A stretch of 64,000 nt of DNA from Cypionkella aquatica (GTDB lineage: Bacteria; Pseudomonadota; Alphaproteobacteria; Rhodobacterales; Rhodobacteraceae), in NCBI RefSeq assembly GCF_030161095.1, contig NZ_BSPP01000004.1, forward strand, positions 496,001 through 560,000, in the 5' to 3' direction. Made by a program: the position numbers and the translations under genes. Below, in pieces: positions 7,265 through 19,885 of this stretch (positions are counted from its first letter, which is position 1; the number at the start of each line of letters is the position of its first letter). Under the pieces are notes generated by a model. It made no database searches and was not told where the DNA came from. It saw nothing but the letters and a program-made list of their open reading frames with translations.

Positions 7265-8179
7265 ATGGCTGCCAAGTCATTCCGTTGGCATATCCCGGTG
7301 TTTCTGGCGCCTGCGGTGCTGGTTTATACTGCGATCATGATCATCCCGTTGTTCGGCACGCTGAACTTGTCGCTATATAATCTGGATGGGCAGAACCGGA
7401 TTTTTGTCGGGCTTGCGAATTTTAAAACCCTGTTTGGTGATCCGCGTTGGTCGGCGTCGTTCTGGAACGCGCTTGGCAACAATGCGTGGTTTTTCATTGT
7501 GCATATGCTGGTGCAAAACCCGATCGGGGTTCTGCTGGCCGCGATCTTGTCCAGCCCGCGGCTGCGCATGGCCGCATTCTACCGCACGGCAATTTTCGTG
7601 CCAGCCATCCTTAGCTTTGTGATCGTGGGCTTCGTGTGGAAGCTGATCCTGTCGCCGATCTGGGGGATTGCGCCGGGGATGTTGGATTGGGTCGGGTTAA
7701 AATCCTTGTATTTGCCGTGGCTCGGCAAGGAAGCCTACGCGCTGACCACGCTGGCGCTGGTGTCGGTCTGGCAATTTGTCGGAATTCCGATGATGCTGAT
7801 TTACGCAGCCCTGCTGAACATCCCGCAAGAGGTGCTTGAGGCCGCCGAGATGGACGGCATTACCGGATCAAGCCAGTTCTGGAAGATCAAACTGCCGCTG
7901 ATCCTGCCCTCTATCGGAATTATCTCGATCCTGACATTCGTGGGTAATTTCAATGCGTTCGACCTGATCTATGTATCCCAAGGCGCGCTGGCCGGGCCGG
8001 ATTTCGCCACCGATATTCTGGGCACTTTCCTGTACCGCACCTTCTTTGGCTTTCAGTTGCAACTGGGCGATCCGCATATGGGGGCAACGATTGCGACGGC
8101 GATGTTTGGCATCATTCTGATCGGCGTCTGCATTTATCTGTTTGCCATCCAGACGCGGCTGCGCCGCTATCAGTTTTAA
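7265..8179 (+). CDS. Sugar ABC transporter permease (MalF/UgpA type)
   Basis: Inner-membrane permease of 304 residues with about six hydrophobic segments. The cytoplasmic EAA loop is EAAEMDGITGSSQFWKIKLP near residue 195-215, the contact site for the ATPase. The ATG at 7265 follows CTCGGAGG. It pairs with the next gene as a heterodimer. Context gives an amino-sugar substrate; the sequence alone does not specify it. Confidence 0.92.
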   Translation: MAAKSFRWHIPVFLAPAVLVYTAIMIIPLFGTLNLSLYNLDGQNRIFVGLANFKTLFGDPRWSASFWNALGNNAWFFIVHMLVQNPIGVLLAAILSSPRLRMAAFYRTAIFVPAILSFVIVGFVWKLILSPIWGIAPGMLDWVGLKSLYLPWLGKEAYALTTLALVSVWQFVGIPMMLIYAALLNIPQEVLEAAEMDGITGSSQFWKIKLPLILPSIGIISILTFVGNFNAFDLIYVSQGALAGPDFATDILGTFLYRTFFGFQLQLGDPHMGATIATAMFGIILIGVCIYLFAIQTRLRRYQF

Positions 8180-8188
8180 GGGGCAGAT

Positions 8189-9025
8189 ATGGCCACCCGC
8201 ATCCCGCTTTCGCGCAGCATAGCCGCCCATACGGTACTGATCGCCTATACGCTGATCTCGCTGTTTCCGGTGTTTGTCATCGTGATCAACAGCTTCAAGT
8301 CGCGCAAAGCGATCTTTGCCGCCCCATTGGAGCCGCCAACACCCACGACGTTTGATCTGGTCGGCTACGCCACCGTGCTGAAACAGGGTGATTTCTTTCA
8401 ATACTTCATGAACTCGATGATCGTCACATGCTCTAGCCTGTTTTTCGTGCTGTTGTTCGGCGCGATGGCGGCGTTTGCACTGTCGGAATACCGCTTCAAG
8501 GCCAACACGCTGACCGGACTTTATCTGGCCTTGGGCATCATGATTCCCATCCGGCTTGGCACGGTTGCGATCTTGCAACTGATGGTGGCGGGCGGTCTGG
8601 TCAACACCCGCACGGCATTGGTGCTGGTCTATACTGCGCAGGGCTTGCCCTTAGCGGTGTTCATCCTGTCAGAGTTCATGAAGCAAGTTTCAGATGATCT
8701 TAAAAACGCAGGCCGCATCGACGGGCTGTCGGAGTACCGCATCTTTTTCACACTGGTGCTGCCCTTGATCCGGCCTGCGATGGCGACGGTGGCGGTATTC
8801 TCGCTTATCCCGATCTGGAATGACCTGTGGTTCCCGCTGATCCTTGCCCCGGCGGAAGAGGTGAAAACCATCACCCTTGGCTCTCAAATCTTCATTGGGC
8901 AATTCGTCACCAATTGGAATGCTGTGCTGGCGGCACTGAGCCTCGCCATCATTCCGGTGCTGGTGCTTTACCTTATTTTCTCACGGCAACTGATCCGTGG
9001 CATCACTGCAGGAGCCGTCAAATGA
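8189..9025 (+). CDS. Sugar ABC transporter permease (MalG/UgpE type)
   Basis: Second permease, 278 residues, with six predicted membrane segments and a variant EAA loop NAGRIDGLSEYRIFFTLVLP. It starts 9 bases after its partner, behind AGGGGCAG. Its stop overlaps the next start as ATGA, giving translational coupling to the oxidoreductase, which is therefore an integral part of this operon. Confidence 0.92.
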   Translation: MATRIPLSRSIAAHTVLIAYTLISLFPVFVIVINSFKSRKAIFAAPLEPPTPTTFDLVGYATVLKQGDFFQYFMNSMIVTCSSLFFVLLFGAMAAFALSEYRFKANTLTGLYLALGIMIPIRLGTVAILQLMVAGGLVNTRTALVLVYTAQGLPLAVFILSEFMKQVSDDLKNAGRIDGLSEYRIFFTLVLPLIRPAMATVAVFSLIPIWNDLWFPLILAPAEEVKTITLGSQIFIGQFVTNWNAVLAALSLAIIPVLVLYLIFSRQLIRGITAGAVK

Positions 9026-10044
9026 TCAAAGTTCTTGTCGCAGGTCTTGGCAATATGGGGCTTAGCCATGCTTTGGCCTATCACAACAATCCGGCGTTTC
9101 AGATCGTGGGTCTGGTCAATAGATCCACCCCGAAACTGCCCGCCGACCTGCAATCCTATCCGGTAAGCGCCGATTATGCCGAGGCTTTGGCCCGTCTGAA
9201 GCCGAATCTGGTCTGCGTCGCCACCTATTCTGACAGCCACGCAGATTACGCCTGCACCGCGATGGATGCGGGGGCGGATGTCTTTGTCGAAAAGCCGCTT
9301 GCCACCACGGTTGCCGATGCGCGGCGGGTGCAGGCCAAGGCGCTGGAAACTGGGCGCAAAGTGGTGGTCGGCTACATTCTGCGCCATCATCCCAGCTGGA
9401 TCCGCCTGATCGAGGAAGCCCGCGCTTTGGGCGGCCCCTATGTGTTCCGGCTGAACCTAAACCAACAATCCTCGGGGCCAACCTGGGATGTGCATAAGGC
9501 ACTGATGCAGACCACGCCGCCGATCGTCGATTGCGGCGTGCATTATGTTGACGTGATGTGCCAGATCACCGATGCAAAGCCGGTCGAAGTGCGCGGCATG
9601 GGTCTGCGGCTGTCCAATGAAATCGCCGCTGATATGTATAACTACGGCCATTTTCAGGTGATCTTTGCCGATGGCAGCCTCGGCTGGTACGAGGCAGGCT
9701 GGGGCCCGATGATGTCGGACACTGCGTTTTTCGTCAAAGATGTGGTCAGCCCGAATGGCGCAGTGTCGATCCGCATGCCGGACTCGGCGCGCTCGGATGA
9801 TATCGACACCCACACCAAAACCTCGCTGTTGCGGGTGCATAAAGTGGCCTCGGGCGATACCGATATTTCGATGGCGGATGAACCCGGCCATCAACAGCTG
9901 TGCGACCGCGAGCAAGCCTATGTTGCCCGCGCCATCACCGAAAACCTTGATCTGACCCGACATATGCAAGACGCGGTTCAATCGCTGGCCATCTGCCTTG
10001 CGGCGGATGAAAGCGTGCGGTCCGGCCAGCCTGTGAAACTTTAG
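9022..10044 (+). CDS. Gfo/Idh/MocA-family oxidoreductase
   Basis: NAD(P)-dependent sugar dehydrogenase family, 340 residues. The Rossmann fold starts VLVAGLGNMG (residues 4-13), and the family EKP motif appears as VEKPLATT near residue 92. The ATG at 9022 overlaps the permease stop; the reading frame extends further upstream, but that part is inside the permease. Its place between permease and ATPase shows that the imported sugar, or a side product, is oxidised or epimerised. An anhydro- or lactyl-sugar is possible, but the substrate cannot be read from sequence. Confidence 0.87.
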   Translation: MIKVLVAGLGNMGLSHALAYHNNPAFQIVGLVNRSTPKLPADLQSYPVSADYAEALARLKPNLVCVATYSDSHADYACTAMDAGADVFVEKPLATTVADARRVQAKALETGRKVVVGYILRHHPSWIRLIEEARALGGPYVFRLNLNQQSSGPTWDVHKALMQTTPPIVDCGVHYVDVMCQITDAKPVEVRGMGLRLSNEIAADMYNYGHFQVIFADGSLGWYEAGWGPMMSDTAFFVKDVVSPNGAVSIRMPDSARSDDIDTHTKTSLLRVHKVASGDTDISMADEPGHQQLCDREQAYVARAITENLDLTRHMQDAVQSLAICLAADESVRSGQPVKL

Positions 10045-10053
10045 GAGCCTGCG

Positions 10054-11052
10054 ATGGGTGCGCTGACATTAAGCAATGTAACGAAATCCTTCGGCACCAC
10101 CGATGTGATCAAAGGCGTCGATCTGCAGGTCGAAGATGGCGAGTTCTGCGTGTTTGTCGGTCCATCAGGCTGCGGCAAATCCACCTTGTTGCGAATGATT
10201 GCCGGGCTGGAAGATTGCACAGGCGGCGAAATCGCCATTGACGGCAAACGGGTGAACGAAGTCGCCCCCGCCAAGCGCGAACTGGCAATGGTGTTCCAAT
10301 CCTACGCGCTTTATCCGCATCTGACCGTGCGCGACAATATGGGGCTGGCCCTGAAACAGGCGGGTGTGTCCAAGCCCGACATCACCAAAGCCACGGATCG
10401 CGCCGCAGATATGCTGTCGCTTGGGCCGCTGCTGGATCGTCGCCCGGCAGAGCTGTCTGGCGGGCAGCGCCAGCGCGTCGCCATCGGTCGCGCCATCGTG
10501 CGCACGCCAAAACTGTTCCTGTTCGACGAGCCTTTGTCCAACCTTGACGCCGCCTTGCGAGTCGCCACGCGCATTGAGATCGCGCGCTTGCACCGCGACC
10601 TTGCCGCCACGATGATCTATGTGACCCATGATCAGATCGAGGCGATGACCCTTGCCGACCGGATCGTGGTTCTGCGCGCAGGCCGGGTGGAACAGGTCGG
10701 CGCCCCGATGGAGCTGTATAATGATCCGGCGAATACCTTTGTTGCGGGCTTTATCGGCTCGCCGCAGATGAACTTCCTGAAGGCGGGGGCCTTGGGGATG
10801 CGGTCTGACACAATGGGCGTGCGGCCTGAACATCTGGCCTTGTCCCGCGAGGCGGGGCAGATGCCCGGCACAGTGTCGCATGTCGAAAAGCTGGGTGGTG
10901 AGACTTTGGTTTACGTCAATGCCGAAGCGCAGGGCCTGCTGACCGTGCGGCTGTTTGGCGAACATAATTTCAATGTCGGTGAAGCCGTCCACATCACCCC
11001 AGACGCCAGCCGCGCCTTCCATTTCGACGCAAACGGGCAGCGGCTGCGCTAG
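10054..11052 (+). CDS. Sugar ABC transporter ATP-binding protein (UgpC/MalK type)
   Basis: Nucleotide-binding subunit, 332 residues. Walker A is GPSGCGKST (about 37-45), the signature is LSGGQRQR, and Walker B is [12 protein letters not shown], followed by the H-loop VTHDQIEAM and a TOBE domain at the C-terminus that carries the conserved VRPEHL segment. Last gene of the murQ-transporter operon. It completes a full importer with the preceding binding protein and permeases. Confidence 0.94.
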
Positions 11053-11058
11053 ATATAT

Positions 11059-11081
11059 GCGCCGCCACCGTCTGGCGGCGC
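11059..11081. terminator. Bidirectional hairpin between ABC ATPase and nrsF
   Basis: A 9-bp perfect stem (GCGCCGCCA / TGGCGGCGC) lies in the 28-bp convergent gap and just reaches the nrsF stop. There is no long T-run on either side, so termination would be inefficient or Rho-assisted. Confidence 0.5.
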
Positions 11082-11719
11082 TACCACTGCAACACGCGCC
11101 GCCCGACAATTGCGCCGACCACGGTGACGATCAGTATGGCAACGCCATACCACGTCACGAAAAACAGCGGGTTGTCGCGGGTGCAAAACAGCGAATAGCC
11201 CGCGGTGACGCCGCTGGCGGCAGTCAGCCCTACCAAAGCCCCCGACAGCTGCGGCGCGGTGCTGGCCCCTTGCCGCGCCAGCATCAACAACCCCACCAAC
11301 GGCACAATCGACAGCATCAGGATCGAGCCGAGACACTCCGTTAACGAAAACGTCCCAACCTCGGCAAAGCGGGCCTGCGGCGCGCGCGAAATGAACGCGC
11401 CCGCCCACAGCAGCAGTGCCACCGCCACCGGGGCCGCATAGCCATAGCCCGCACGGCCAATCCGCGCCTCGGGCCGGATCAGCCGCAACAACAGCACCAG
11501 CGAAAGCCCGCAGATGCCCAGCGGCAGCAGGGTTTTCAGTATAACCACCGGGTTCGACCAAGCCGACATCAAGCCGCGCCGCATGCCGAACTCAGCCAGA
11601 AAAAGCGCAACCGGCACCAGCATTGCCAGGGTCGCAATCGCCGCCAACCGTCTTTGCCGCAGCGGCGCACGCACCGGGCTGCCCGAAAGCTGGATGATCA
11701 GATCGTCGGTCTTGCTCAT
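11081..11719 (-). CDS. nrsF: NrsF-type (DUF1109) membrane anti-sigma factor
   Basis: Inner-membrane protein of 212 residues with six hydrophobic helices after a short polar N-terminus that would hold the sigma factor. DUF1109 proteins (NrsF in Caulobacter and Azospira, OsrA in Bradyrhizobium) release their ECF sigma when periplasm-facing cysteines are oxidised. Three cysteines are present: C70, C129 and C179. The C129/C179 pair has the 50-residue spacing of the Caulobacter sensing pair, as I recall it. It overlaps the sigma gene by 4 bases. Sensing of hypochlorite or ROS is inferred from the family and the methionine-repair neighbours. Confidence 0.88.
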   Translation of the reverse strand: MSKTDDLIIQLSGSPVRAPLRQRRLAAIATLAMLVPVALFLAEFGMRRGLMSAWSNPVVILKTLLPLGICGLSLVLLLRLIRPEARIGRAGYGYAAPVAVALLLWAGAFISRAPQARFAEVGTFSLTECLGSILMLSIVPLVGLLMLARQGASTAPQLSGALVGLTAASGVTAGYSLFCTRDNPLFFVTWYGVAILIVTVVGAIVGRRVLQW

Positions 11720-12267
11720 GGTTCGCCCCTGCGGCCCAACTGGGCCATCCGTTTCATCGACCGGTGCAACATCACCCGCAGATTTCCGGGGCTGATCTGC
11801 AACCGCGCACTGACATCGGCCTGCGCCTCGTCCCGAAGCACCAACGCGCGCACCACCTCGGCCGAGCGAGGGTCAAGCTGCCCCAACAGGTGATCCACCT
11901 CGGCCCGGTCATCACGCGCCGCCAGAGGATCGGCGGCCTGCTCGGCGGCCAACACATCAGCATAATCCTCGATCGGCAGATGCACCGCCACACCACGCTT
12001 GCGGTAAGCGTCGATGATTTTATAGCGGGTGATCGCATACAACCAAGGTCGCACCGGCTGGCCCGGATCCCAAGTCTGGCGTTTGCGGTGAATGGCAAGC
12101 AGAACGTCCTGCACAATATCCTCGTGTTGGTCAGGGGCAAGGCTGCGGCTGCGCGCGCGCACAATGCCCCGGATTATAGGGGTAACCGCCCGCAAAAACT
12201 GGGCGTAGGCTTGCCTGTCATCGACATTCGCCGCCAACAACAGCGTGGCCAAAGCATCTTCGGTCAC
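11716..12267 (-). CDS. sigF: ECF RNA polymerase sigma factor (SigF/EcfF group)
   Basis: A 183-residue ECF sigma. Region 2 includes DIVQDVLLAIHRKRQTWDPG and PWLYAITRYKIIDAYRKRG; region 4 has the helix-turn-helix around DVSARLQISPGNLRVMLHRS. I chose the GTG at 12267 because AAGGA lies eight bases upstream and the length is then normal; the open frame to 12498 runs through the promoter region. The gene is followed by its DUF1109 anti-sigma. It is preceded by its own GTAACA-N16-CGAA promoter, matching the SigF consensus I recall (GTAACC-N16-CGAA), so it is probably autoregulated. Confidence 0.88.
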   Translation of the reverse strand: MTEDALATLLLAANVDDRQAYAQFLRAVTPIIRGIVRARSRSLAPDQHEDIVQDVLLAIHRKRQTWDPGQPVRPWLYAITRYKIIDAYRKRGVAVHLPIEDYADVLAAEQAADPLAARDDRAEVDHLLGQLDPRSAEVVRALVLRDEAQADVSARLQISPGNLRVMLHRSMKRMAQLGRRGEP

Positions 12268-12285
12268 ATGCACGTCCTTTGTCCC

Positions 12286-12311
12286 TTCGCGGCTTTGGGG
12301 TGGATTGTTAC
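12286..12311 (-). promoter_or_regulatory. Probable SigF-dependent promoter of sigF-nrsF
   Basis: On the minus strand GTAACA (12311-12306), 16 bases, then CGAA (12289-12286). This lies 18 bases before the GTG start. It is the same motif with the same spacing as the promoter facing msrB. Confidence 0.7.
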
Positions 12312-12428
12312 AAGCGATAGGCGATTTTTGGCAATGACGCCATCGCTGCACATTTTCGCGATCCCCGATTTTGTGACGCTTGCCCGTATGTCGCCCCACA
12401 ATTTTCTGAACACCAAAGCGTGAGCCGC

Positions 12429-12454
12429 GTAACACACGGCCGCCCCCCTGCGAA
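12429..12454 (+). promoter_or_regulatory. Probable SigF-dependent promoter of msrB-ccdA operon
   Basis: GTAACA (12429-12434), a 16-base spacer, then CGAA (12451-12454), 38 bases before the msrB start. It is identical in both elements and spacing to the divergent sigF promoter, which strongly ties msrB and ccdA to this sigma factor. Confidence 0.7.
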
Positions 12455-12492
12455 TGGACACACCAAGAAGCCAACCAGCAAGGACACCGCCC

Positions 12493-12969
12493 ATGCAACT
12501 CTCACGCCGCTCTGTTCTGACCAGCCTTATCCTTGGGGCCGCCGCTGTGCCGTTCGGCCTGCCAGCCCACGCAAAAACCGGCTTTGCCGTCACGCATACA
12601 GATGCGGAATGGCGCGCCCTGCTGACCCCGGCGCAATACCAAGTGCTGCGGCAAGAAGGCACCGAGCGTGCCTTCAGCAGCCCATTGTTGAAGGAACACC
12701 GCAAGGGCACCTTCGCCTGCGCTGGCTGCGCCTTGCCGCTTTATGACTCAGCGACCAAATATGACAGCGGCACCGGCTGGCCCAGCTTCTGGCAGCCTCT
12801 GAAAAACGCAGTTGGCACCAAGACGGACGCCACGCTGTCCGACACCCGCACCGAGGTGCATTGCAGCCGCTGCGGTGGCCATCTTGGCCATGTTTTCAAC
12901 GATGGGCCCCAGCCAACCGGCCTGCGCTACTGCATGGACGGCGTCGCCATGACATTTCATCCAGCCTGA
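12493..12969 (+). CDS. msrB: Exported peptide-methionine (R)-S-oxide reductase
   Basis: Reduces R-methionine sulfoxide in proteins. It is 158 residues, with an N-terminal twin-arginine-like signal (LSRRSVLTSL, then a hydrophobic stretch to AHA), so it acts outside the cytoplasm. The MsrB domain has the zinc ligands CAGC and CSRC, the GWPSFW substrate loop and the catalytic Cys in LRYCMDG. No resolving Cys is seen in the substrate loop, so direct reduction by a thioredoxin-like partner is likely. The ATG at 12493 follows AAGGA. It is cotranscribed with the CcdA-thioredoxin gene 44 bases downstream. Confidence 0.93.
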   Translation: MQLSRRSVLTSLILGAAAVPFGLPAHAKTGFAVTHTDAEWRALLTPAQYQVLRQEGTERAFSSPLLKEHRKGTFACAGCALPLYDSATKYDSGTGWPSFWQPLKNAVGTKTDATLSDTRTEVHCSRCGGHLGHVFNDGPQPTGLRYCMDGVAMTFHPA

Positions 12970-13013
12970 TCTTGCGGGCCCTCCAAGCACTTCACCCCAA
13001 TAAGGACAGCAAC

Positions 13014-14297
13014 ATGTTACTGCTTTTGCTTAGCTTTCTCGGTGGCATGTTGACCATCGCAAGCCCCTGCATCCTGCCGGTTCTGCCCTTTGTCTTTGCC
13101 AAAGCCGGGCAAAGCTTTGCGAAAAGCACGCTGCCAATGCTGCTTGGCATGGCGATCAGCTTTGCCGCCATCGCCTCGCTTGCCGCCGTCAGTGGCGATT
13201 GGGCGGTCAAGACCAACCAGTATGGCCGGGCCGCCGCCTTGGTGGCGATGGCGGCATTTGGCGCGGCATTGCTGTTTCCGGCCCTGTCGCAGCGGTTGTC
13301 GCGCCCGGTCGTCGCGCTGGGGGCAAAGCTGACAGCAAGCGCCAACAGCAGCACGCAAAAAGGCGGCTCGGTGGTTGCGGGGTCGCTGGTGCTGGGGGTA
13401 GCGACGGGCCTGCTTTGGGCGCCTTGCGCTGGTCCGATGCTTGGCCTGATTTTGACCGGAGCCGCCTTGAATGGCGCAAACCTTGCCACCAGCCTGCTGC
13501 TGTTAAGCTATGCTTTGGGCGCTGCCACCTCACTTGCCCTGGCTTTGCTGGTGGGCGGGCGGGTACTGCGCGCGATGAAACAATCGCTTGGCACGGCGGA
13601 GTGGTTGCGCCGCGGGCTGGGGGCCGCCGTCATTCTGGCGGTCGCAGCCATCGGCCTTGGTGTCGATACCCGCTTTCTGGCGCGGGCATCATTTGCCAGC
13701 ACAGCCGGCCTAGAGCAAAGCCTGCTGGATCGCGTGATCAATCCTGCCGCGTTGACCGCTGAACCGATGTCGGCACCTGCCACGGATAGCCCATTACTGC
13801 AAAACGCGCCAAAGCTTCAAAACATCAACCTGACCCTGCCGGTAGAGCCGACAAAGCCCAATCTGAAAGGTGCCGTGCAGTGGCTGAACTCTGATCCGCT
13901 GACAATGGCCCAGCTGAAAGGCAAGGTGGTGCTGGTCGATTTCTGGACCTTTGGCTGCATCAATTGCCTGAACGCTTTGCCGCATGTCAAAGAATGGGCC
14001 GCGAAATATGCCGATCAGGGGCTGGTTGTCATCGGCGTCCACTCCCCCGAATTCGCCTACGAGAAAGACCCCGAAAACGTCCAGAAAGCCATAGTCGATC
14101 TTGGCATCAACTTTCCCGTGGCACTGGACAACAACTTTACCATTTGGCGTCAGTTCAACAACCGCTACTGGCCCGCGCTGTATTTCATTGATGCCGAGGG
14201 CCAGGTGCGCTTCCACCACTTTGGCGAAGGCGCTTATGACAAGTCCGAACAAGTGATCCAGCACCTGCTTGCCGAACGTGATGCGGCCGCGCCGTAA
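13014..14297 (+). CDS. CcdA (DsbD-like) electron transporter fused to periplasmic thioredoxin domain (DipZ-like)
   Basis: A 427-residue fusion. The N-terminal CcdA/DsbD membrane domain (about 1-230) carries the transport cysteines in ASPCILP (C19) and WAPCAGP (C138). A linker leads to a TlpA-like thioredoxin domain (about 285-425) with the active site FGCINC (C315, C318). It moves reducing power from cytoplasmic thioredoxin to the periplasm. Sitting between exported MsrB and MsrA, it is the obvious reductant for both. The ATG at 13014 follows TAAGGACAG; upstream codons of the frame lie inside msrB. Confidence 0.9.
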   Translation: MLLLLLSFLGGMLTIASPCILPVLPFVFAKAGQSFAKSTLPMLLGMAISFAAIASLAAVSGDWAVKTNQYGRAAALVAMAAFGAALLFPALSQRLSRPVVALGAKLTASANSSTQKGGSVVAGSLVLGVATGLLWAPCAGPMLGLILTGAALNGANLATSLLLLSYALGAATSLALALLVGGRVLRAMKQSLGTAEWLRRGLGAAVILAVAAIGLGVDTRFLARASFASTAGLEQSLLDRVINPAALTAEPMSAPATDSPLLQNAPKLQNINLTLPVEPTKPNLKGAVQWLNSDPLTMAQLKGKVVLVDFWTFGCINCLNALPHVKEWAAKYADQGLVVIGVHSPEFAYEKDPENVQKAIVDLGINFPVALDNNFTIWRQFNNRYWPALYFIDAEGQVRFHHFGEGAYDKSEQVIQHLLAERDAAAP

Positions 14298-14391
14298 CGC
14301 CAAAGCCTGATCCACGGCCCGCTGATTTGATCTGACCCATCCCGCGCTACCTGTAATTCATACCCATCCACGTTTCCTGAAAGGCAACGCC

Positions 14392-15123
14392 ATGCAACAG
14401 ACCTTCACTTCGCCGGAACCCACAGCGCCCCGCCGCAGATTGACCACAGCACTGGCCCTGATCGCCTTGCTTGGGGGTGGCGCGATACTGCTGCCCACCA
14501 CCGCCAGCTTTGCGGGTGAGGGCGTCCTGATCCCCGCCCCGGCGCTGGATCAACCCGCCAGCACTGGCACCCAGACCGCAATCTTTGCGGGTGGCTGCTT
14601 TTGGGGCGTGCAAGGCGTGTTCCAGCATGTCGATGGTGTGATCAGCGCCACCTCGGGCTATACGGGCGGCGCAGATGGAAGCCCCAATTATGAAAGTGTC
14701 AGCGCAGGCAGCACTGGCCATGCCGAGGCGGTGAAAATCGTCTATGACCCGTCGAAAGTCAGCTACGGCGATCTGCTGCACATCTTCTTTTCGGTCGTCG
14801 CCGATCCGACCACGCTGAACTATCAGGGGCCCGATCACGGCACGCAATACCGCACCGCGATTTTCCCAACCAATGCGGCGCAAGCCAAAATCACCAAAGC
14901 TTATATCGCCCAGCTGAACGCAGCCAAAGTGTTCCCCGCCGCTATCGTCACCACGATTGAACCGCAGGCGAAATTCTTCGTCGCCGAAGACTACCATCAG
15001 GATTTTCTGACCCAGAACCCGACCTATCCCTATATCGTCATCAATGATCTGCCAAAGGTCGCAGACCTGAAGGTGATGTTCCCGGATGATTACCGCAAAA
15101 AGCCCGTGCTGGTGATGAACTAG
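14392..15123 (+). CDS. msrA: Exported peptide-methionine (S)-S-oxide reductase
   Basis: Reduces S-methionine sulfoxide. It is 243 residues. The first 45 are Arg-rich and then hydrophobic, ending TASFAGEG, so it is a signal peptide or anchor and the enzyme is periplasmic. The catalytic motif GGCFWG holds C69, which is the only cysteine in the protein; the usual C-terminal resolving cysteines are missing. Such a one-Cys MsrA must be reduced directly, consistent with the neighbouring CcdA-thioredoxin. The 94-base gap from ccdA contains no clear SigF motif, so read-through or another promoter is possible. Confidence 0.93.
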   Translation: MQQTFTSPEPTAPRRRLTTALALIALLGGGAILLPTTASFAGEGVLIPAPALDQPASTGTQTAIFAGGCFWGVQGVFQHVDGVISATSGYTGGADGSPNYESVSAGSTGHAEAVKIVYDPSKVSYGDLLHIFFSVVADPTTLNYQGPDHGTQYRTAIFPTNAAQAKITKAYIAQLNAAKVFPAAIVTTIEPQAKFFVAEDYHQDFLTQNPTYPYIVINDLPKVADLKVMFPDDYRKKPVLVMN

Positions 15124-15221
15124 CGCCCAGCGCCCGCAACGCCTGAACCACGGTGCCGCCCTCCCTCTGGCGCCGTGGTGCAGACAAATCCCGAAATTCA
15201 GCGCAGATGGCCGGTATCCCG

Positions 15222-16199
15222 ATGGAAATGCACCAGATCAAATACTTTCTGGCCGTGACGCGGACGCTGAATTTCACCCGCGCCGCAGATCAATGTAATG
15301 TCACCCAGCCTTCGCTGACCCGCGCTATTCAAAAGCTTGAGGATGAATTTGGCGGCTTTCTGTTCAACCGGGAACGCGCGCTGACGCATCTGACCGAACT
15401 GGGCCGCATGGTGCTGCCGCACCTTGAACAAACCTACGAAGCCGCAGAGGCCGCGACCTCGCTCGCCAGCAGCATCGGTCGGGCCGAGGTGACGCCCTTG
15501 GTGATCGGCGTGGCCGACGGTCTGCACCTGCCGATGTTGGACGAGATTCTGGCCGCGTTGTCGCACAGCCTGCCAGCGTTGACACTGGATCTGCGCAACG
15601 GCAGTGCTGCGCACCTGCTCGATCTCGCGTTGAAAGGCAACACAGATCTGCTGATCACCGCCTTGCCCGATCAACCGCATGATCGGCTGGAAACTTGGCC
15701 GCTGTTCACCCAGCCCTACGGCGTCGCGATCCGCGCCGATCACAGGCATGCGCGCGCTCCCGCCATTTCCATCGCGGAACTGGCAGCCGAGCCTTGGATC
15801 GACAGCGAAGATGCAGGCACCGCACTTTTGCGCAATGCCGCCGCCAGCCTTGGCTTGGCACCACTGTTTCGCCACCGCGCCGCCTGCCGCAATCAGATCC
15901 TGCGACTGGTGGCTTTGGGTCTGGGCCATGCGATCGTGCCTTTGGGCACCACCGCCCCTGGCATCAAAACCCTTGCGATCAAAGACCATCCCCTGCACCA
16001 AAATGTGGTGATGGCTGCAGTGTCAGGCAGGCGTCGAGGCCGTGCCGCTGATGCCTTTCTGCGCGCCGCCCGCGCATGCAACTGGCAATCGGATCAGCCA
16101 TGCCCTGAAACCACGCAGTCTGAAACCGCGCTGCCCGATCAGCTGCGCCTTGTCAGGCCGTACAGCGCGCTTAGCACTGCCGCAGGTGCTGCGCGCTGA
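15222..16199 (+). CDS. LysR-family transcriptional regulator
   Basis: A 325-residue LTTR. The N-terminal helix-turn-helix includes MHQIKYFLAVTRTLNFTRAA and VTQPSLTRAIQKLE, followed by a periplasmic-binding-protein-like effector domain. The start is uncertain: ATGs at 15207, 15222 and 15228 have weak ribosome sites, and I chose 15222. It carries a roughly 35-residue tail beyond the usual family end and overlaps the 3' end of the convergent peroxiredoxin gene by 61 bases. LysR proteins near peroxide genes are often OxyR-like, but I do not see a clear OxyR Cys pair. The target is unknown. Confidence 0.85.
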   Translation: MEMHQIKYFLAVTRTLNFTRAADQCNVTQPSLTRAIQKLEDEFGGFLFNRERALTHLTELGRMVLPHLEQTYEAAEAATSLASSIGRAEVTPLVIGVADGLHLPMLDEILAALSHSLPALTLDLRNGSAAHLLDLALKGNTDLLITALPDQPHDRLETWPLFTQPYGVAIRADHRHARAPAISIAELAAEPWIDSEDAGTALLRNAAASLGLAPLFRHRAACRNQILRLVALGLGHAIVPLGTTAPGIKTLAIKDHPLHQNVVMAAVSGRRRGRAADAFLRAARACNWQSDQPCPETTQSETALPDQLRLVRPYSALSTAAGAAR

Positions 16200-16804
16200 C
16201 GAAAATCCGGCTCGACAAAGGCGAAATGCACCTGTCTGGCTCCGTCAAGCACAAAGGTCGCAGGTGTCGGCAACAGACCAGTCGCGCATCCATACGCCTG
16301 TGCCAAATCAAACCCATCGCGGCGATATTGCTGCAACACCGACAGCCCCACCGGAAATGCCAAACCATAGCGAAGTGCCACGCCCAGATCGGGGTCGCAC
16401 AGCACAGTCACCCCCTGCCCCGCAATCTGCGCCAATCCAGCCAATCGCCCGCCAGTCTCGGGCGTGACAATGATCAGTCGCCCGCCTGCCGCAATCAGCG
16501 CATCGCGGTTTTCTGACCACGCCCGCACCTCCTCTGCGCAAAACGGGCACCAACTGCCGCGGTTGAAGCTCAGCACCGCTGGCCCCTCGGCCAACAGATC
16601 AGTCAGACGCTGCAACCGCCCCTTTGGATCGGGCAGCGCAAAATCAGCGGCAACATCGCCCAGCGCAGGCGCACCCGCCATCGCATCCGACGCCCGCAAC
16701 CGCTCGATCAGTGCCTCATAGCCAGCGGCATCCGTGCCCAAACTTGCCCCCGGTTGATCCCGACAAGCCGCCAGCCGCACGATATGATCCGCAGAATTTT
16801 CCAT
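16139..16804 (-). CDS. Peroxiredoxin-like (AhpC/TSA/redoxin) protein
   Basis: A thioredoxin-fold protein of 221 residues. The active-site region is NRGSWCPFCAEEVRAW with C86 and C89; the sequence resembles the PRX-like2/redoxin group that reduces peroxides. No signal peptide, so it should be cytoplasmic. I chose the ATG at 16804 (MENSADH), because the longer open frame to 17542 runs antisense through the methionine-repeat gene and is an artefact of its repeat codons. It is convergent with, and overlaps, the LysR gene. Location inside the methionine-repair island suggests a peroxide or hypochlorite role. Confidence 0.82.
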   Translation of the reverse strand: MENSADHIVRLAACRDQPGASLGTDAAGYEALIERLRASDAMAGAPALGDVAADFALPDPKGRLQRLTDLLAEGPAVLSFNRGSWCPFCAEEVRAWSENRDALIAAGGRLIIVTPETGGRLAGLAQIAGQGVTVLCDPDLGVALRYGLAFPVGLSVLQQYRRDGFDLAQAYGCATGLLPTPATFVLDGARQVHFAFVEPDFRQRAAPAAVLSALYGLTRRS

Positions 16805-17045
16805 CCCGCGATCATTCCGCAAATCCGCCGTCCGCGAAAGACCGCAATCCGCATGTGTTTCATGCACGCAAAGCATGGCCCGTGCCAATTCATAGCCAGC
16901 AGGCATCGAAAACATAGGCAGGTGGCATTTTATATCCAGACGAACATCGGTCACCTTTAACGTAATCGGTCCACAACAGGATCGGTGCACCACTCCGGGC
17001 CTGCTGCCAATACCGGCGCTGCCCGCCCCAAATTGGAGATTTCTG
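16805..17045. other. Divergent intergenic region, peroxiredoxin / methionine-repeat gene
   Basis: A 241-base spacer that should contain promoters for both genes. GTAATC at 16962-16967 resembles the -35 of the SigF promoters, but the CGAA element is not present at the right spacing (GGTG at N16, CGGT at N15). TTGGAG precedes the methionine-repeat start. No coding frame here looks real. Confidence 0.5.
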
Positions 17046-17384
17046 ATGAACCGTTTTCTGATCGCCCTCGCCCTGTCCACCACCATCACCGCCCCAGCTT
17101 TTGCTGAAACGATGGCCAAAGACATCGCCTGCAGCGCTTTCTCCGCGATGGATTCCAACGGCATGATGATGGCGATGGACGAAGCCAAAATGGCCGGCGA
17201 CGCCATGGCAGGGGATGCGATGGCAGGCGATGCAATGGCTTCCGGTGACGCGATGGCCTCAGGCGATGCGATGGCGGGCGACGCTATGGCGATGTCGCCC
17301 GAAGATAAAATGGCCGCCTTGGTCAAAACCTGCAAAGAGCATCCCGACATGATGGTATCCGAAGCGATGCACCCCAAAATGTGA
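17046..17384 (+). CDS. Periplasmic methionine-rich repeat protein (MrpX-like)
   Basis: A 112-residue protein with a clear signal peptide (cleavage after AFA, residue 20). The mature 92 residues contain 19 methionines, about one in five. Residues about 49-83 are a run of MAGDA and MASGDA repeats. The flanks, DIACSAFSAMDSNG and ALVKTCKEHPDMM with one Cys each, resemble the two-Cys frame of HdeA-like acid chaperones. In Azospira, SigF/NrsF controls a methionine-rich peptide (MrpX) that scavenges hypochlorite and is repaired by YedY1; this gene lies directly before the equivalent oxidoreductase pair. Function is inferred from that parallel. Confidence 0.85.
   Translation: MNRFLIALALSTTITAPAFAETMAKDIACSAFSAMDSNGMMMAMDEAKMAGDAMAGDAMAGDAMASGDAMASGDAMAGDAMAMSPEDKMAALVKTCKEHPDMMVSEAMHPKM
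17200..17294 (+). repeat. In-frame tandem repeat of the methionine-rich protein
   Basis: About six imperfect 15- or 18-base units of the form GATGCGATGGCAGGC encode MAGDA/MASGDA. Units differ at third positions (gcg/gca/gct, ggc/ggg/ggt), so the array is old or under selection at the protein level rather than freshly expanded. Length variation between strains is likely. Confidence 0.8.
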
Positions 17385-17391
17385 TCTACTG

Positions 17392-17417
17392 CGGGCACCG
17401 AAACCCTTCGGTGCCCG
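17392..17417 (+). terminator. Hairpin between methionine-repeat gene and cytochrome gene
   Basis: An 11-bp perfect stem (CGGGCACCGAA / TTCGGTGCCCG) with an ACCC loop, 7 bases after the stop. No T-run follows, so it more probably stabilises the upstream mRNA or attenuates than fully terminates. It would allow far more repeat protein than reductase. Confidence 0.6.
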
Positions 17418-17448
17418 CCCCGCCCCTTTAACCAAGCAGGACCATCAG

Positions 17449-18291
17449 ATGCACAGCCCCGAACCGATGGCGATACAAGCCCCCAAAGGCGGCGATCTGG
17501 TGGATCGGCACCGTTTGTCGACGCGGCTTTGGCATTGGACAAATGTCATCACCATCGTGATCATGCTGATGAGCGGGTTGATGATCTTCAACGCCCATCC
17601 CCGGCTGTATTGGGGCAAATATGGGGCCAACCCGGATTACGCTTGGCTGCAAATCGGCGCGACCCAAGGCGAAACAGGCTTTCTGCGCGTAGGTTCCGTG
17701 ACGGTGGATACCACTGGCGTTCTGGGTCGTTGGACCGAAAGCAGCGGCCAGGTACGCAACCGCGCCTTTCCATCTTGGGCAACCCTGCCCGGCAGCTATA
17801 ACCTTGCGCTGGCGCGGCGCTGGCACCTGACCTTTGCTTGGGTGTTCGCACTTGGCATCACCGCCTATCTGATCCGCAGCCTGATCAACCGTCATTTGCA
17901 ACGCGACCTGTTGCCAACCGCCGAACAGGCCCGCCCCGCCCATATCTGGGCCGACATCAAACACCACGCCAAGCTGCAATTCCCAAAGGGTGAGGCCGCG
18001 CGTCATTACAACATCCTACAGAAATTCGCGTATCTCTCAGTGCTTCTGGTGCTGATCCCCGGCATTATCCTGACCGGCTTCACCATGTCGCCCAGCCTGA
18101 ACGCCACTTTCCCTTGGCTGCTTGATGTGTTCGGTGGCCGCCAATCCGCCCGCTCGCTGCATTTCATCTTCATGCTGGGCATCGTGGCCTTTGTTATCGT
18201 GCATCTGCTGATGGTTGTGCTGGCCGGACCGATCAATGAGATCCGCTCGATGATCACCGGGCGCTACCGTCTGCCCAAGGAGGATAAATGA
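17449..18291 (+). CDS. Cytochrome b561-type membrane subunit (YedZ1-like)
   Basis: A di-heme b-type cytochrome of 280 residues with about four membrane helices. Candidate heme histidines are in RLWHWTNV, RRWHLTFAW, ARSLHFIFML and VIVHLLMVV. A large periplasmic loop follows helix 1. It resembles Ni/Fe-hydrogenase b subunits and the YedZ1 partner of YedY1 rather than the MsrQ family proper. The stop overlaps the next start (ATGATG region, 4 bases), so the two subunits are coupled. Likely role: pass quinol electrons to the molybdoenzyme in the periplasm. Confidence 0.87.
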   Translation: MHSPEPMAIQAPKGGDLVDRHRLSTRLWHWTNVITIVIMLMSGLMIFNAHPRLYWGKYGANPDYAWLQIGATQGETGFLRVGSVTVDTTGVLGRWTESSGQVRNRAFPSWATLPGSYNLALARRWHLTFAWVFALGITAYLIRSLINRHLQRDLLPTAEQARPAHIWADIKHHAKLQFPKGEAARHYNILQKFAYLSVLLVLIPGIILTGFTMSPSLNATFPWLLDVFGGRQSARSLHFIFMLGIVAFVIVHLLMVVLAGPINEIRSMITGRYRLPKEDK

Positions 18292-19046
18292 TGGCCCCGC
18301 TGCTGACCCGCCGTTCCATACTGACCGGGCTTGGTTTCTCCACCATCATCGGCACCACTGGCGGCCTTGTGCTAAGCCCGAGCTTCCGCGATCTGGTGCT
18401 GGCATCGGGCGAGAAGCTCGCCTACCAAACCCACCGCCTGATCGGCCGCAACGCTCTTGCGCCCGAGTTTACCGAGGCCGATCTGTCGCCCGATTTTCGC
18501 ACCAATGGCAACACCATGCCCGCCTCGGCAGAGTATCAGCGCCACATGGAAACCAGCTTTGCCAACTGGCGCTTGCAGGTCGATGGGCTGGTTGCAGCAC
18601 CGCAGGCCTTCTCGCTTGCAGCGTTGAAAGCCATGCCCGCCCGCGCCCAGATCACCCGCCACGATTGCGTCGAAGGCTGGAGCGCGATTGGCAAATGGAC
18701 AGGTGTTCCGCTTGCAGCCCTGCTGACGCAAGTCAAGCTGCTGCCCACGGCACGCTATCTGGTGCTCCATTGCGCCGATGATTTCAGCGGCAATGCGTAT
18801 TACGAAAGCATTGATCTGGTGGACGCTTTCCACCCGCAGACCATGCTGGCCCATACGATGAATGATCAACCACTGTCGGTCGGCCACGGCGCGCCTTTGC
18901 GCCTGCGGGTGGAACGGCAGCTGGGCTACAAACAGGCTAAATACATTATGCGGATCGAAGCCACCGCCACCCTTGCCAATATCGGCCTTGGTAAAGGTGG
19001 CTATTGGGAAGATCAGATCGGCTATGATTGGTATGCTGGCATCTGA
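18288..19046 (+). CDS. Periplasmic molybdopterin-dependent oxidoreductase (YedY1/MsrP-like)
   Basis: Sulfite-oxidase-fold molybdoenzyme of 252 residues. A Tat signal is visible (LTRRSILTGLGF plus hydrophobic stretch). The Mo-ligand cysteine sits in TRHDCVEGWSAIGKW (C127). In Azospira, SigF/NrsF induces YedY1, which repairs oxidised MrpX using YedZ1; here all these partners are adjacent. The alternative is a general methionine-sulfoxide reductase like E. coli MsrP. Substrate is inference. The gene could start at the first or second Met. Confidence 0.87.
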   Translation: MMAPLLTRRSILTGLGFSTIIGTTGGLVLSPSFRDLVLASGEKLAYQTHRLIGRNALAPEFTEADLSPDFRTNGNTMPASAEYQRHMETSFANWRLQVDGLVAAPQAFSLAALKAMPARAQITRHDCVEGWSAIGKWTGVPLAALLTQVKLLPTARYLVLHCADDFSGNAYYESIDLVDAFHPQTMLAHTMNDQPLSVGHGAPLRLRVERQLGYKQAKYIMRIEATATLANIGLGKGGYWEDQIGYDWYAGI

Positions 19047-19171: not shown

Positions 19172-19885
19172 ATGATCACAATTCATCAAAAAGCCATCCG
19201 TGGTCACACCCGCTCTGGTTGGCTTGACAGCTTTCACACCTTTTCCTTCGGCAGCTTCAACGACCCCAACCGCATGGGCTTTGGCAATCTGCGGGTGCTG
19301 AACGACGATAGCGTGATCCCCGGCGCAGGTTTTGCACCGCATCGCCATCAGGATATGGATATTCTGACCTATGTGCTGAAAGGCCAGCTGCGCCATGAGG
19401 ATGATCAGGGCAATATCTCGCTGATCGCCGCCAGACAGGCGCAGCTGATGTCAGCCGGGCGCGGCGTGACACATTCCGAATTCAACGCATCAGAGCAGGA
19501 AACCGCGCATTTTGTGCAGATCTGGCTGCTGCCCGACACCCCCGGTGGCGAGCCAAGCTATGCACAAGTTTCGGTGCCAGAACAGGGAGATATCCTGCTT
19601 GCCGGTCCCGCAACCTCGGGCGCCCTGCTGCACCTGCGCTCATCGACCACGCTGCGGCTGGTGCATGCGTCCGAGCATGACCAGACCGCGCTGAACACCC
19701 CCGGCAGCCACCGCTTCGTGCATCTGCTTGACGGCATGGCCTTTGCCGAAACCGAGCGCCTTAGCGCAGGCGACGGGCTGGAAATTCCAGCCGATGAAGG
19801 CACGGTGCTGGATTGGGCCAGCGACGGCGCGGCACTGGTGTTTACCATGCCCTCGCTTTTGCCCTATCCCCCAAGCACCCCCTAG
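19172..19885 (+). CDS. Pirin family protein
   Basis: Bicupin of 237 residues. The N-terminal cupin has the metal site HRHQDMDILTYVLKG and GVTHSE with an HxH...H...E pattern. Pirins include quercetin 2,3-dioxygenases and redox-sensitive regulators. The ATG at 19172 begins the conserved MITIHQ segment; earlier codons of the frame are in the 125-base gap after the molybdoenzyme. Same direction as the methionine-repair genes, but with no shared promoter seen. Function in this organism is open. Confidence 0.88.
   Translation: MITIHQKAIRGHTRSGWLDSFHTFSFGSFNDPNRMGFGNLRVLNDDSVIPGAGFAPHRHQDMDILTYVLKGQLRHEDDQGNISLIAARQAQLMSAGRGVTHSEFNASEQETAHFVQIWLLPDTPGGEPSYAQVSVPEQGDILLAGPATSGALLHLRSSTTLRLVHASEHDQTALNTPGSHRFVHLLDGMAFAETERLSAGDGLEIPADEGTVLDWASDGAALVFTMPSLLPYPPSTP

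Follow-up and report, generated by a model that had tools for sequence, protein, structure and literature searches.

A predicted periplasmic methionine-repair island in Cypionkella aquatica and its probable assembly from two separately controlled modules

A 64,000-nucleotide stretch of contig NZ_BSPP01000004.1 of Cypionkella aquatica (positions 496,001 to 560,000, here called the window) carries, at 11081-19046, ten genes in which an extracytoplasmic function (ECF) sigma factor and its NrsF anti-sigma lie beside two sets of genes for methionine repair, one thiol-based (exported MsrB and MsrA with a CcdA-thioredoxin fusion of the DipZ type), the other built on a molybdenum enzyme (YedY1-like) with a cytochrome and a methionine-repeat protein. 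Does the ECF/NrsF pair control all of them, as a first-pass annotation of the sequence had proposed? Exact sites of the ECF16 promoter type were found before ecf-nrsF and before msrB, and the molybdenum set occurs apart from the ECF/NrsF pair in other genomes. It is fairly probable that two known modules, set next to each other, make up the island. The second probably has a regulator of its own, LysR being the likeliest, and any ECF control of it would be indirect.

Gene content and conservation of the island

Gene identities were taken from Pfam and NCBIfam scans of the window proteins, and leaders in these proteins were read by eye. The genes are as follows.

11081..11719, minus strand: nrsF anti-sigma gene (PF06532, 140 bits against a cut-off of 26.8)
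11716..12267, minus strand: ECF sigma factor gene, ECF16-like (Sigma70_r2 and r4; GTG start at 12267, 12273 possible)
12493..12969, plus strand: msrB, exported (Tat-like leader), one catalytic cysteine and four cysteines in two CxxC pairs
13014..14297, plus strand: DipZ-type CcdA-thioredoxin fusion, with the CcdA membrane cysteine pair and a CxxC thioredoxin domain
14392..15123, plus strand: msrA, exported, its single cysteine being the catalytic one
15222..16199, plus strand: lysR-type regulator, between msrA and the peroxiredoxin gene (Pfam/NCBIfam)
16139..16804, minus strand: AhpC/TSA-like peroxiredoxin (prx; Pfam), WCPFC motif, no leader seen, convergent with lysR
17046..17384, plus strand: methionine-repeat protein, exported, two cysteines, possibly HdeA-like ends, 20 methionines in 112 residues (18%)
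17449..18291, plus strand: cytochrome b561-type membrane protein, YedZ1-like (PF01292, 83 bits)
18288..19046, plus strand: molybdopterin oxidoreductase, YedY1-like, exported (Tat-like leader), overlapping the cytochrome gene by 4 nt (Pfam/NCBIfam)

It can be seen that nrsF and ecf, which overlap by 4 nt, are divergent from the run msrB, dipZ, msrA and lysR, and that prx, on the minus strand, separates this run from the methionine-repeat, cytochrome and YedY1-like genes. The sigma factor is labelled ECF16 because of its NrsF partner and its promoter type; the window NrsF scores below the narrower NCBIfam equivalog AntiSigF_NrsF (72.8 against 300 bits). Conservation of cysteines was judged over three or four copies of each gene, and the key catalytic ones are intact in all of them. 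Cys129 and Cys179 of NrsF, the positions given for OsrA in the part of PMC3420878 available to us, are kept in four of four copies. All gene families listed by the first-pass annotation were confirmed by these scans; lysR had been omitted, and the peroxiredoxin turned out to lie on the minus strand with no leader seen. It described the island as one of periplasmic methionine repair, in which a thiol branch, a molybdenum/cytochrome branch and a methionine-rich protein stand beside an ECF16-like/NrsF pair, and this description holds.

The arrangement recurs within the genus. Fifteen Cypionkella genomes, several of them incomplete, were compared, and a YedY1 orthologue of at least 90% identity is present in three: the window genome (G000), G247 and G297. 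The order of all ten genes is identical in the three. DNA similarity to the window covers 11077-19042 in G247 and 11111-19042 in G297, and stops at most about 35 bp from the outer ends of nrsF and of the YedY1-like gene. The window flanks match neither genome; G247 and G297 have a common flank at the nrsF side and not at the other. Recurring in 3 of the 15 Cypionkella genomes, the island is more than a chance grouping, and because similarity is confined to it while the flanks differ, the block would have travelled as one piece, or have kept its place intact amid changing surroundings.

In the family the two halves are found apart. The NrsF cut-off was exceeded in 41 of 295 Rhodobacteraceae genomes; with genomes of fragmentary hits left out, 38 stretches from 36 NrsF genomes besides the window's own were compared, some of which end at contig ends, and only G247 has the whole island. 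In G077, which belongs to another genus, ECF-NrsF and msrB-msrA (L035) lie about 44 kb from lysR, prx and the genes for the methionine-rich protein, the cytochrome and YedY1 (L239), so that lysR and prx stay with the molybdenum half. G154 and G513 carry these last three genes with no lysR, prx or ECF gene in the fetched stretch. Co-occurrence in other Rhodobacteraceae, which the annotation had named as a check, is seen for the whole island in G247, while G077 has separated halves and G154 and G513 the molybdenum part alone.

YedY1 at E<=1e-50 is found in 17 of 385 genomes of the class and 14 of 394 of the family. By the filter applied, a methionine-rich gene with HdeA-like ends precedes the cytochrome and yedY1 genes in 5 of the 14 family genomes (G000, G247, G077, G154 and G513), accompanied by lysR and prx in three of them and by ECF/NrsF in two. 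Neither ECF nor NrsF was found by phmmer in 18 fetched stretches of the class or in 10 further ones of the family, some of which end at contig ends. The phmmer count for ECF/NrsF is a floor, because the same search missed NrsF in two loci, L222 and L224, where Pfam finds it.

Predicted promoter sites and probable control of the two halves

The intergenic elements considered here are the following.

12286..12311, minus strand: predicted ECF16-type promoter site of ecf-nrsF, GTAAC-N17-CGAA (motif search)
12429..12454, plus strand: predicted ECF16-type promoter site of msrB, GTAAC-N17-CGAA, conserved in three Cypionkella genomes
15147..15179, plus strand: GC-rich hairpin after msrA, no T run
16851..16877, no strand: putative LysR-site-like half-sites GCAT-N7-ATGC-N7-GCAT, between prx and the methionine-repeat gene
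16967..16985, no strand: inverted repeat CGGTCC-N5/6-GGAYCGG before the methionine-repeat gene, conserved in four genomes

In the window genome, G247, G297 and G077 alike, ecf-nrsF and msrB each have an exact ECF16-type site directed at them. The one before ecf-nrsF, of the form GTAAC-N16/17-CGAA, is conserved and is predicted to be an autoregulatory promoter. In contrast, the region before the methionine-repeat/molybdenum operon has no ECF16-type site that beats shuffled sequence in any of the four genomes; the best match departs from the motif at 3 of 9 positions in the window and at 2 or 3 across the four. Because ECF16-type sites stand only before ecf-nrsF and msrB, and because the halves are about 44 kb apart in G077, we read the island as two modules placed side by side. 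The idea of one ECF/NrsF switch thus survives for the sigma operon and msrB and is not supported for the molybdenum half. It suggests caution: not all genes that adjoin an ECF16/NrsF pair should be assumed to belong to its regulon.

Indirect control remains to be weighed, in the form of a cascade that runs from the ECF16 sigma to lysR and, through LysR, on to prx and the operon of the methionine-repeat protein and the molybdenum enzyme. Downstream of msrA, after a gap of 98 bp, lysR is read in the same direction, and in G077, where lysR lies elsewhere, an exact ECF16-type site points to it from the gap between polA (identified by PF00476) and lysR. In three genomes, however, hairpins separate lysR from msrA; they are supported in G247 (z -2.8) and G297 (z -2.5) and only weakly in the window (z -1.1, with 25 of 200 shuffles folding as well). 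The G077 site is moreover a single case, with an estimated chance of about 0.2% for that gap before the number of gaps inspected is counted. We regard such a cascade as possible but rather doubtful.

A single ECF16/NrsF regulon over the whole island, with the molybdenum operon expressed from a degenerate ECF16 promoter or by read-through, seems unlikely. It would fit the occurrence of all genes as one block in three genomes and the control of such operons by the ECF16 sigma in Azospira and Brucella, as far as the available portions of these reports go; on pC of R. etli, where NrsF-ECF lies beside genes for a methionine-rich protein, a cytochrome b and YedY1, an exact ECF16-type site precedes the methionine-rich gene. 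Sites with two mismatches are also present at about -60 of the methionine-repeat gene in G247 and G297. Against this stand the shuffling results given above, the separation of the second module from ECF/NrsF in G077 and, within the stretch retrieved, in G154, the hairpins after msrA, weak as that of the window is, and the antisense position of prx between lysR and the methionine-repeat gene, which is contrary to read-through.

Control by LysR is the preferred reading for the second module. Within the putative LysR half-sites the dyad CATGC-N7-GCATG is identical in three genomes, and the third half-site is lost in G077; the dyad occurs once in the window, against 0.37 expected. OxyR-like thiol sensing by this LysR is unlikely, since only Cys24, which lies in the helix-turn-helix, is conserved in four copies.

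Two further results concern ECF16-type sites elsewhere. An extended ECF regulon was not supported by a genome-wide motif search, there being no excess over the reversed pattern. A GTAAC-N16-CGAA site is found in the window genome at C4:704880-704904 (4881 in L151), some 270 bp ahead of the canonical msrP; it may be due to chance, because none is listed on contig C8 of G247 with its msrP-like match.

Two repair branches and a putative methionine sink

In the thiol branch, the membrane cysteine pair of DipZ (residues 20 and 139, in a numbering that starts one codon early) and its CINC site are kept in three of three copies. The window protein has no C-terminal domain after the thioredoxin domain, unlike the four other DipZ proteins aligned. 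The distribution of dipZ was followed in the best 80 of at least 551 confirmed matches. At 34 of these loci, one of them L152 of Cypionkella, msrB, dipZ and msrA adjoin one another; YedY1 or a cytochrome b is present in the retrieved stretch of L152 alone. An ECF gene is near dipZ in three, namely L152, L222 (Dyella) and L224 (Rhodanobacter); in the last two, ECF and NrsF (75 and 65 bits, Pfam) are divergent from dipZ and msrB. In a search from -300 to +150 around the start of dipZ or of the msrB-dipZ cassette, taken at its first open frame, ECF16-type sites were found at 7 of the 80 loci, L152 among them, against about 0.27 expected at even base use.

Some side observations on these loci may be recorded. 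In L222 (Dyella sp. OK004, about 7670-12378), ECF16-type sites point both ways between ECF/NrsF and dipZ-msrB, and a protein with methionine-rich repeats is encoded beyond the anti-sigma gene; this stretch may therefore combine a thiol branch with a possible sink, with no molybdenum branch in it. Five or more methionines, some in MMMSG-like runs, occur in the linker between membrane part and thioredoxin domain in 25 of 70 parsable DipZ proteins (10 of the 80 could not be parsed), for example in L156, L157, L159, L165 and L173, and such a linker might be a built-in methionine sink; the DipZ of L152 has no such methionines. L154 (Phyllobacterium sp. YR531) has a second short dipZ open frame of 438 codons, lacking the length of the C-terminal domain of other loci. 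A CcdA-like gene with a weak DipZ match (62-64 bits) is close to ECF/NrsF in two other Rhodobacteraceae (L033 and L067).

The molybdenum enzyme keeps the cysteine of its HDCVEGW motif in the copies compared and is probably a methionine sulfoxide reductase. It was rejected as a canonical MsrP (YedY), with only 89.7 bits against a cut-off of 207 in NCBIfam NF003767; a canonical MsrP is present elsewhere in the window genome (451 bits). MsrQ belongs to a family other than that of the b561-type cytochromes.

The methionine-repeat protein has no Pfam or NCBIfam match. Its two cysteines flank the repeat, its gene precedes those of the cytochrome and the YedY1-like enzyme in the window, and relatives hold the same place in G247, G297, G077, G154 and G513. 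It is a probable sacrificial sink. Its ends show some likeness to HdeA, a copy of which lies at C4:318764 in the window genome (41 bits to PF06411). When the segment around the second cysteine was aligned with the HdeA of the same genome and compared with shuffled sequences, p was 0.0002 for the window, 0.0002 for G154 and 0.002 for G101, and 0 of 5000 shuffles did as well for G247 and G513. The first-cysteine segment gave 0.09 for the window and 0.06 for G101, both weak, 0.013 for G247, and 0 of 5000 for G154 and G513. Against PF06411 itself, the window protein has no match at E<=10, with or without the repeat, and G154 has none; G247 reaches E 0.27, G077 0.46, and G513 E 0.0005 (20.8 bits, cut-off 22). 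A protein of G101 matches both the sink model (E 2.4e-4) and PF06411 (E 8.3e-4, 20.1 bits). Alignment of the sink and HdeA profiles by hhalign gave probabilities of only 1.6 and 3.2%, and therefore the link to HdeA rests on the segment alignments and the bridging sequences. A profile search of the PDB with the sink returned only chance-like matches, and the methionine-rich protein of R. etli, the only rhizobial one tested, showed no HdeA likeness (p 0.12).

These observations suggest the following working model. The cysteines of NrsF would be the target of envelope oxidants, or metals; the sigma factor, thereby freed, would turn on its own operon and msrB-dipZ-msrA. Cytoplasmic thioredoxin would supply electrons to the membrane cysteines of DipZ, whose outer thioredoxin domain would in turn pass them to the exported MsrA and MsrB. 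In the second module, formed by lysR, the cytoplasmic peroxiredoxin and the operon of methionine-repeat protein, cytochrome b and YedY1-like enzyme, the repeat protein would absorb hypochlorite-like oxidants and be reduced again by quinol electrons delivered through the cytochrome. Two electron routes to one putative sink are thus plausible. A more far-reaching idea, which we put forward tentatively, is that the sink in Rhodobacteraceae is a recycled HdeA-type chaperone scaffold whose middle is now a methionine repeat closed by two cysteines, and that both branches serve it, the molybdenum enzyme and MsrA/MsrB on its sulfoxides and the DipZ thioredoxin domain on its disulfide, with a two-tier ECF16/LysR circuit setting the electron source.

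Several findings weigh against this model. MsrA has one cysteine, and MsrB none besides its CxxC pairs and the catalytic one; reduction of both by DipZ is therefore an assumption. On the side of control, the sites at about -60 in G247 and G297 are ECF16-like, even if not better than shuffles; motif matches over whole genomes number 12, 15 and 22 (G000, G247 and G297) against 88, 77 and 125 for the reversed pattern, with no enrichment; and the dipZ test gave four matches on the opposite strand, three of which are by position divergent ecf promoters (L152, L222 and L224) and one of which, in L199, is unexplained. The best promoter-like match for prx is upstream of the LysR-like half-sites, an odd arrangement for an activator. 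As to the inducer, the available portions of the reports state that RpoE7, the ECF16 sigma of S. meliloti, is not induced by H2O2, Cd or Cr (PMC6180224), and that Caulobacter SigF, which controls a YedY gene, answers chromium and cadmium and not oxidants (PMC3511200).

The last point bears on copper as the real target. In the family, nrsF usually has a PF05114 gene nearby, at no more than about 5 kb in 25 of 37 NrsF genomes; we take PF05114 to be the DUF692 family of Caulobacter SigF targets. Methionine-rich periplasmic proteins often bind copper. Cu(I) binding by the repeat protein, and with it a role of the island in metal stress, is nevertheless quite improbable, for all the metal response of Caulobacter SigF/NrsF, since neither Cypionkella genome of that search has a PF05114 gene, the cargo of the island consists of methionine sulfoxide reductases, and the closest studied operons with a sink and a molybdenum enzyme are tied to hypochlorous acid (HOCl) in the portions of those reports available.

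Directly after the island, outside the block common to the other two genomes, lies a gene at 19172-19885 that looks Pirin-like by eye and has no NCBIfam match.

Comparison with known systems

The published systems are compared here from the portions of the reports available to us. Closest is the SigF/NrsF-MrpX-YedY1 hypochlorite system of Azospira suillum and the perchlorate islands, which likewise has an ECF/NrsF pair, a methionine-rich periplasmic protein and a YedYZ-type pair (PMC5748585, PMC4623255). The first-pass annotation had considered the combined unit possibly undescribed. This is not supported: for P. militaris MP and D. hydrogenophilus LT-1, the passage of PMC4623255 on sigF/nrsF, yedYZ and mrpX adds MsrA and MsrB, both exported as in the window, to the contents of the islands. 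As we read the text, both branches together are therefore already in print, with all of these genes within the same two islands, and the novelty of the gene set as such is weak. The portions available mention no DipZ or peroxiredoxin for the perchlorate islands, and a lysR-type regulator only for those of Magnetospirillum (PMC4623255, PMC5748585). Moreover, SigF of Azospira activates mrpX and yedY1, whereas no ECF16-type promoter is seen for the sink operon of the window.

The Brucella bcrS-abcS/bcrXQP system, induced by HOCl, is alike in its ECF16 sigma/anti-sigma pair, methionine-rich peptide, putative methionine sulfoxide reductase system and type of -35/-10 elements; it differs in that its sink operon is expressed directly from the ECF promoter and that the operons described include no thiol Msr genes (PMC8315932). 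In Bradyrhizobium, the ECF16/DUF1109 pair EcfF/OsrA, with Cys129/179 conserved, has in its regulon three Msr genes, whose export is not stated, and one gene for 'cytochrome c biogenesis', in several scattered transcription units, and Table 3 of that paper names no molybdenum enzyme or methionine-rich protein (PMC3420878). The pneumococcal CcdA-Etrx-MsrAB2 relay also has thioredoxin-fold surface proteins as partners of an extracellular Msr, with CcdA involved, in the form of separate lipoproteins of a Gram-positive organism (PMC3914529). MsrPQ of E. coli is likewise a molybdenum methionine sulfoxide reductase with a quinol-linked membrane partner (PMC8315932); the window enzyme is far below the MsrP model, and its partner is a b561-type cytochrome. 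HdeA/HdeB may resemble the sink in its two cysteine segments and do not in its middle, which is a methionine repeat, and the window protein has no Pfam HdeA match.

Literature searches for HdeA with methionine-rich and for Cypionkella with methionine sulfoxide found no report, and one for DipZ with methionine sulfoxide reductase found nothing related, judged by title and abstract. As far as searched, the new elements are the DipZ donor, the linkage of LysR and peroxiredoxin, and the evidence for a two-cysteine sink of HdeA type with a methionine-repeat middle; in Rhodobacteraceae an HdeA-type scaffold may thus have given rise to a sacrificial protein. Compact and apparently mobile as a block, the island would allow thioredoxin-fed and quinol-fed periplasmic methionine repair to be compared directly. 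Taken together, its parts are familiar from the systems above, and its wiring and sink scaffold look unusual beside them.

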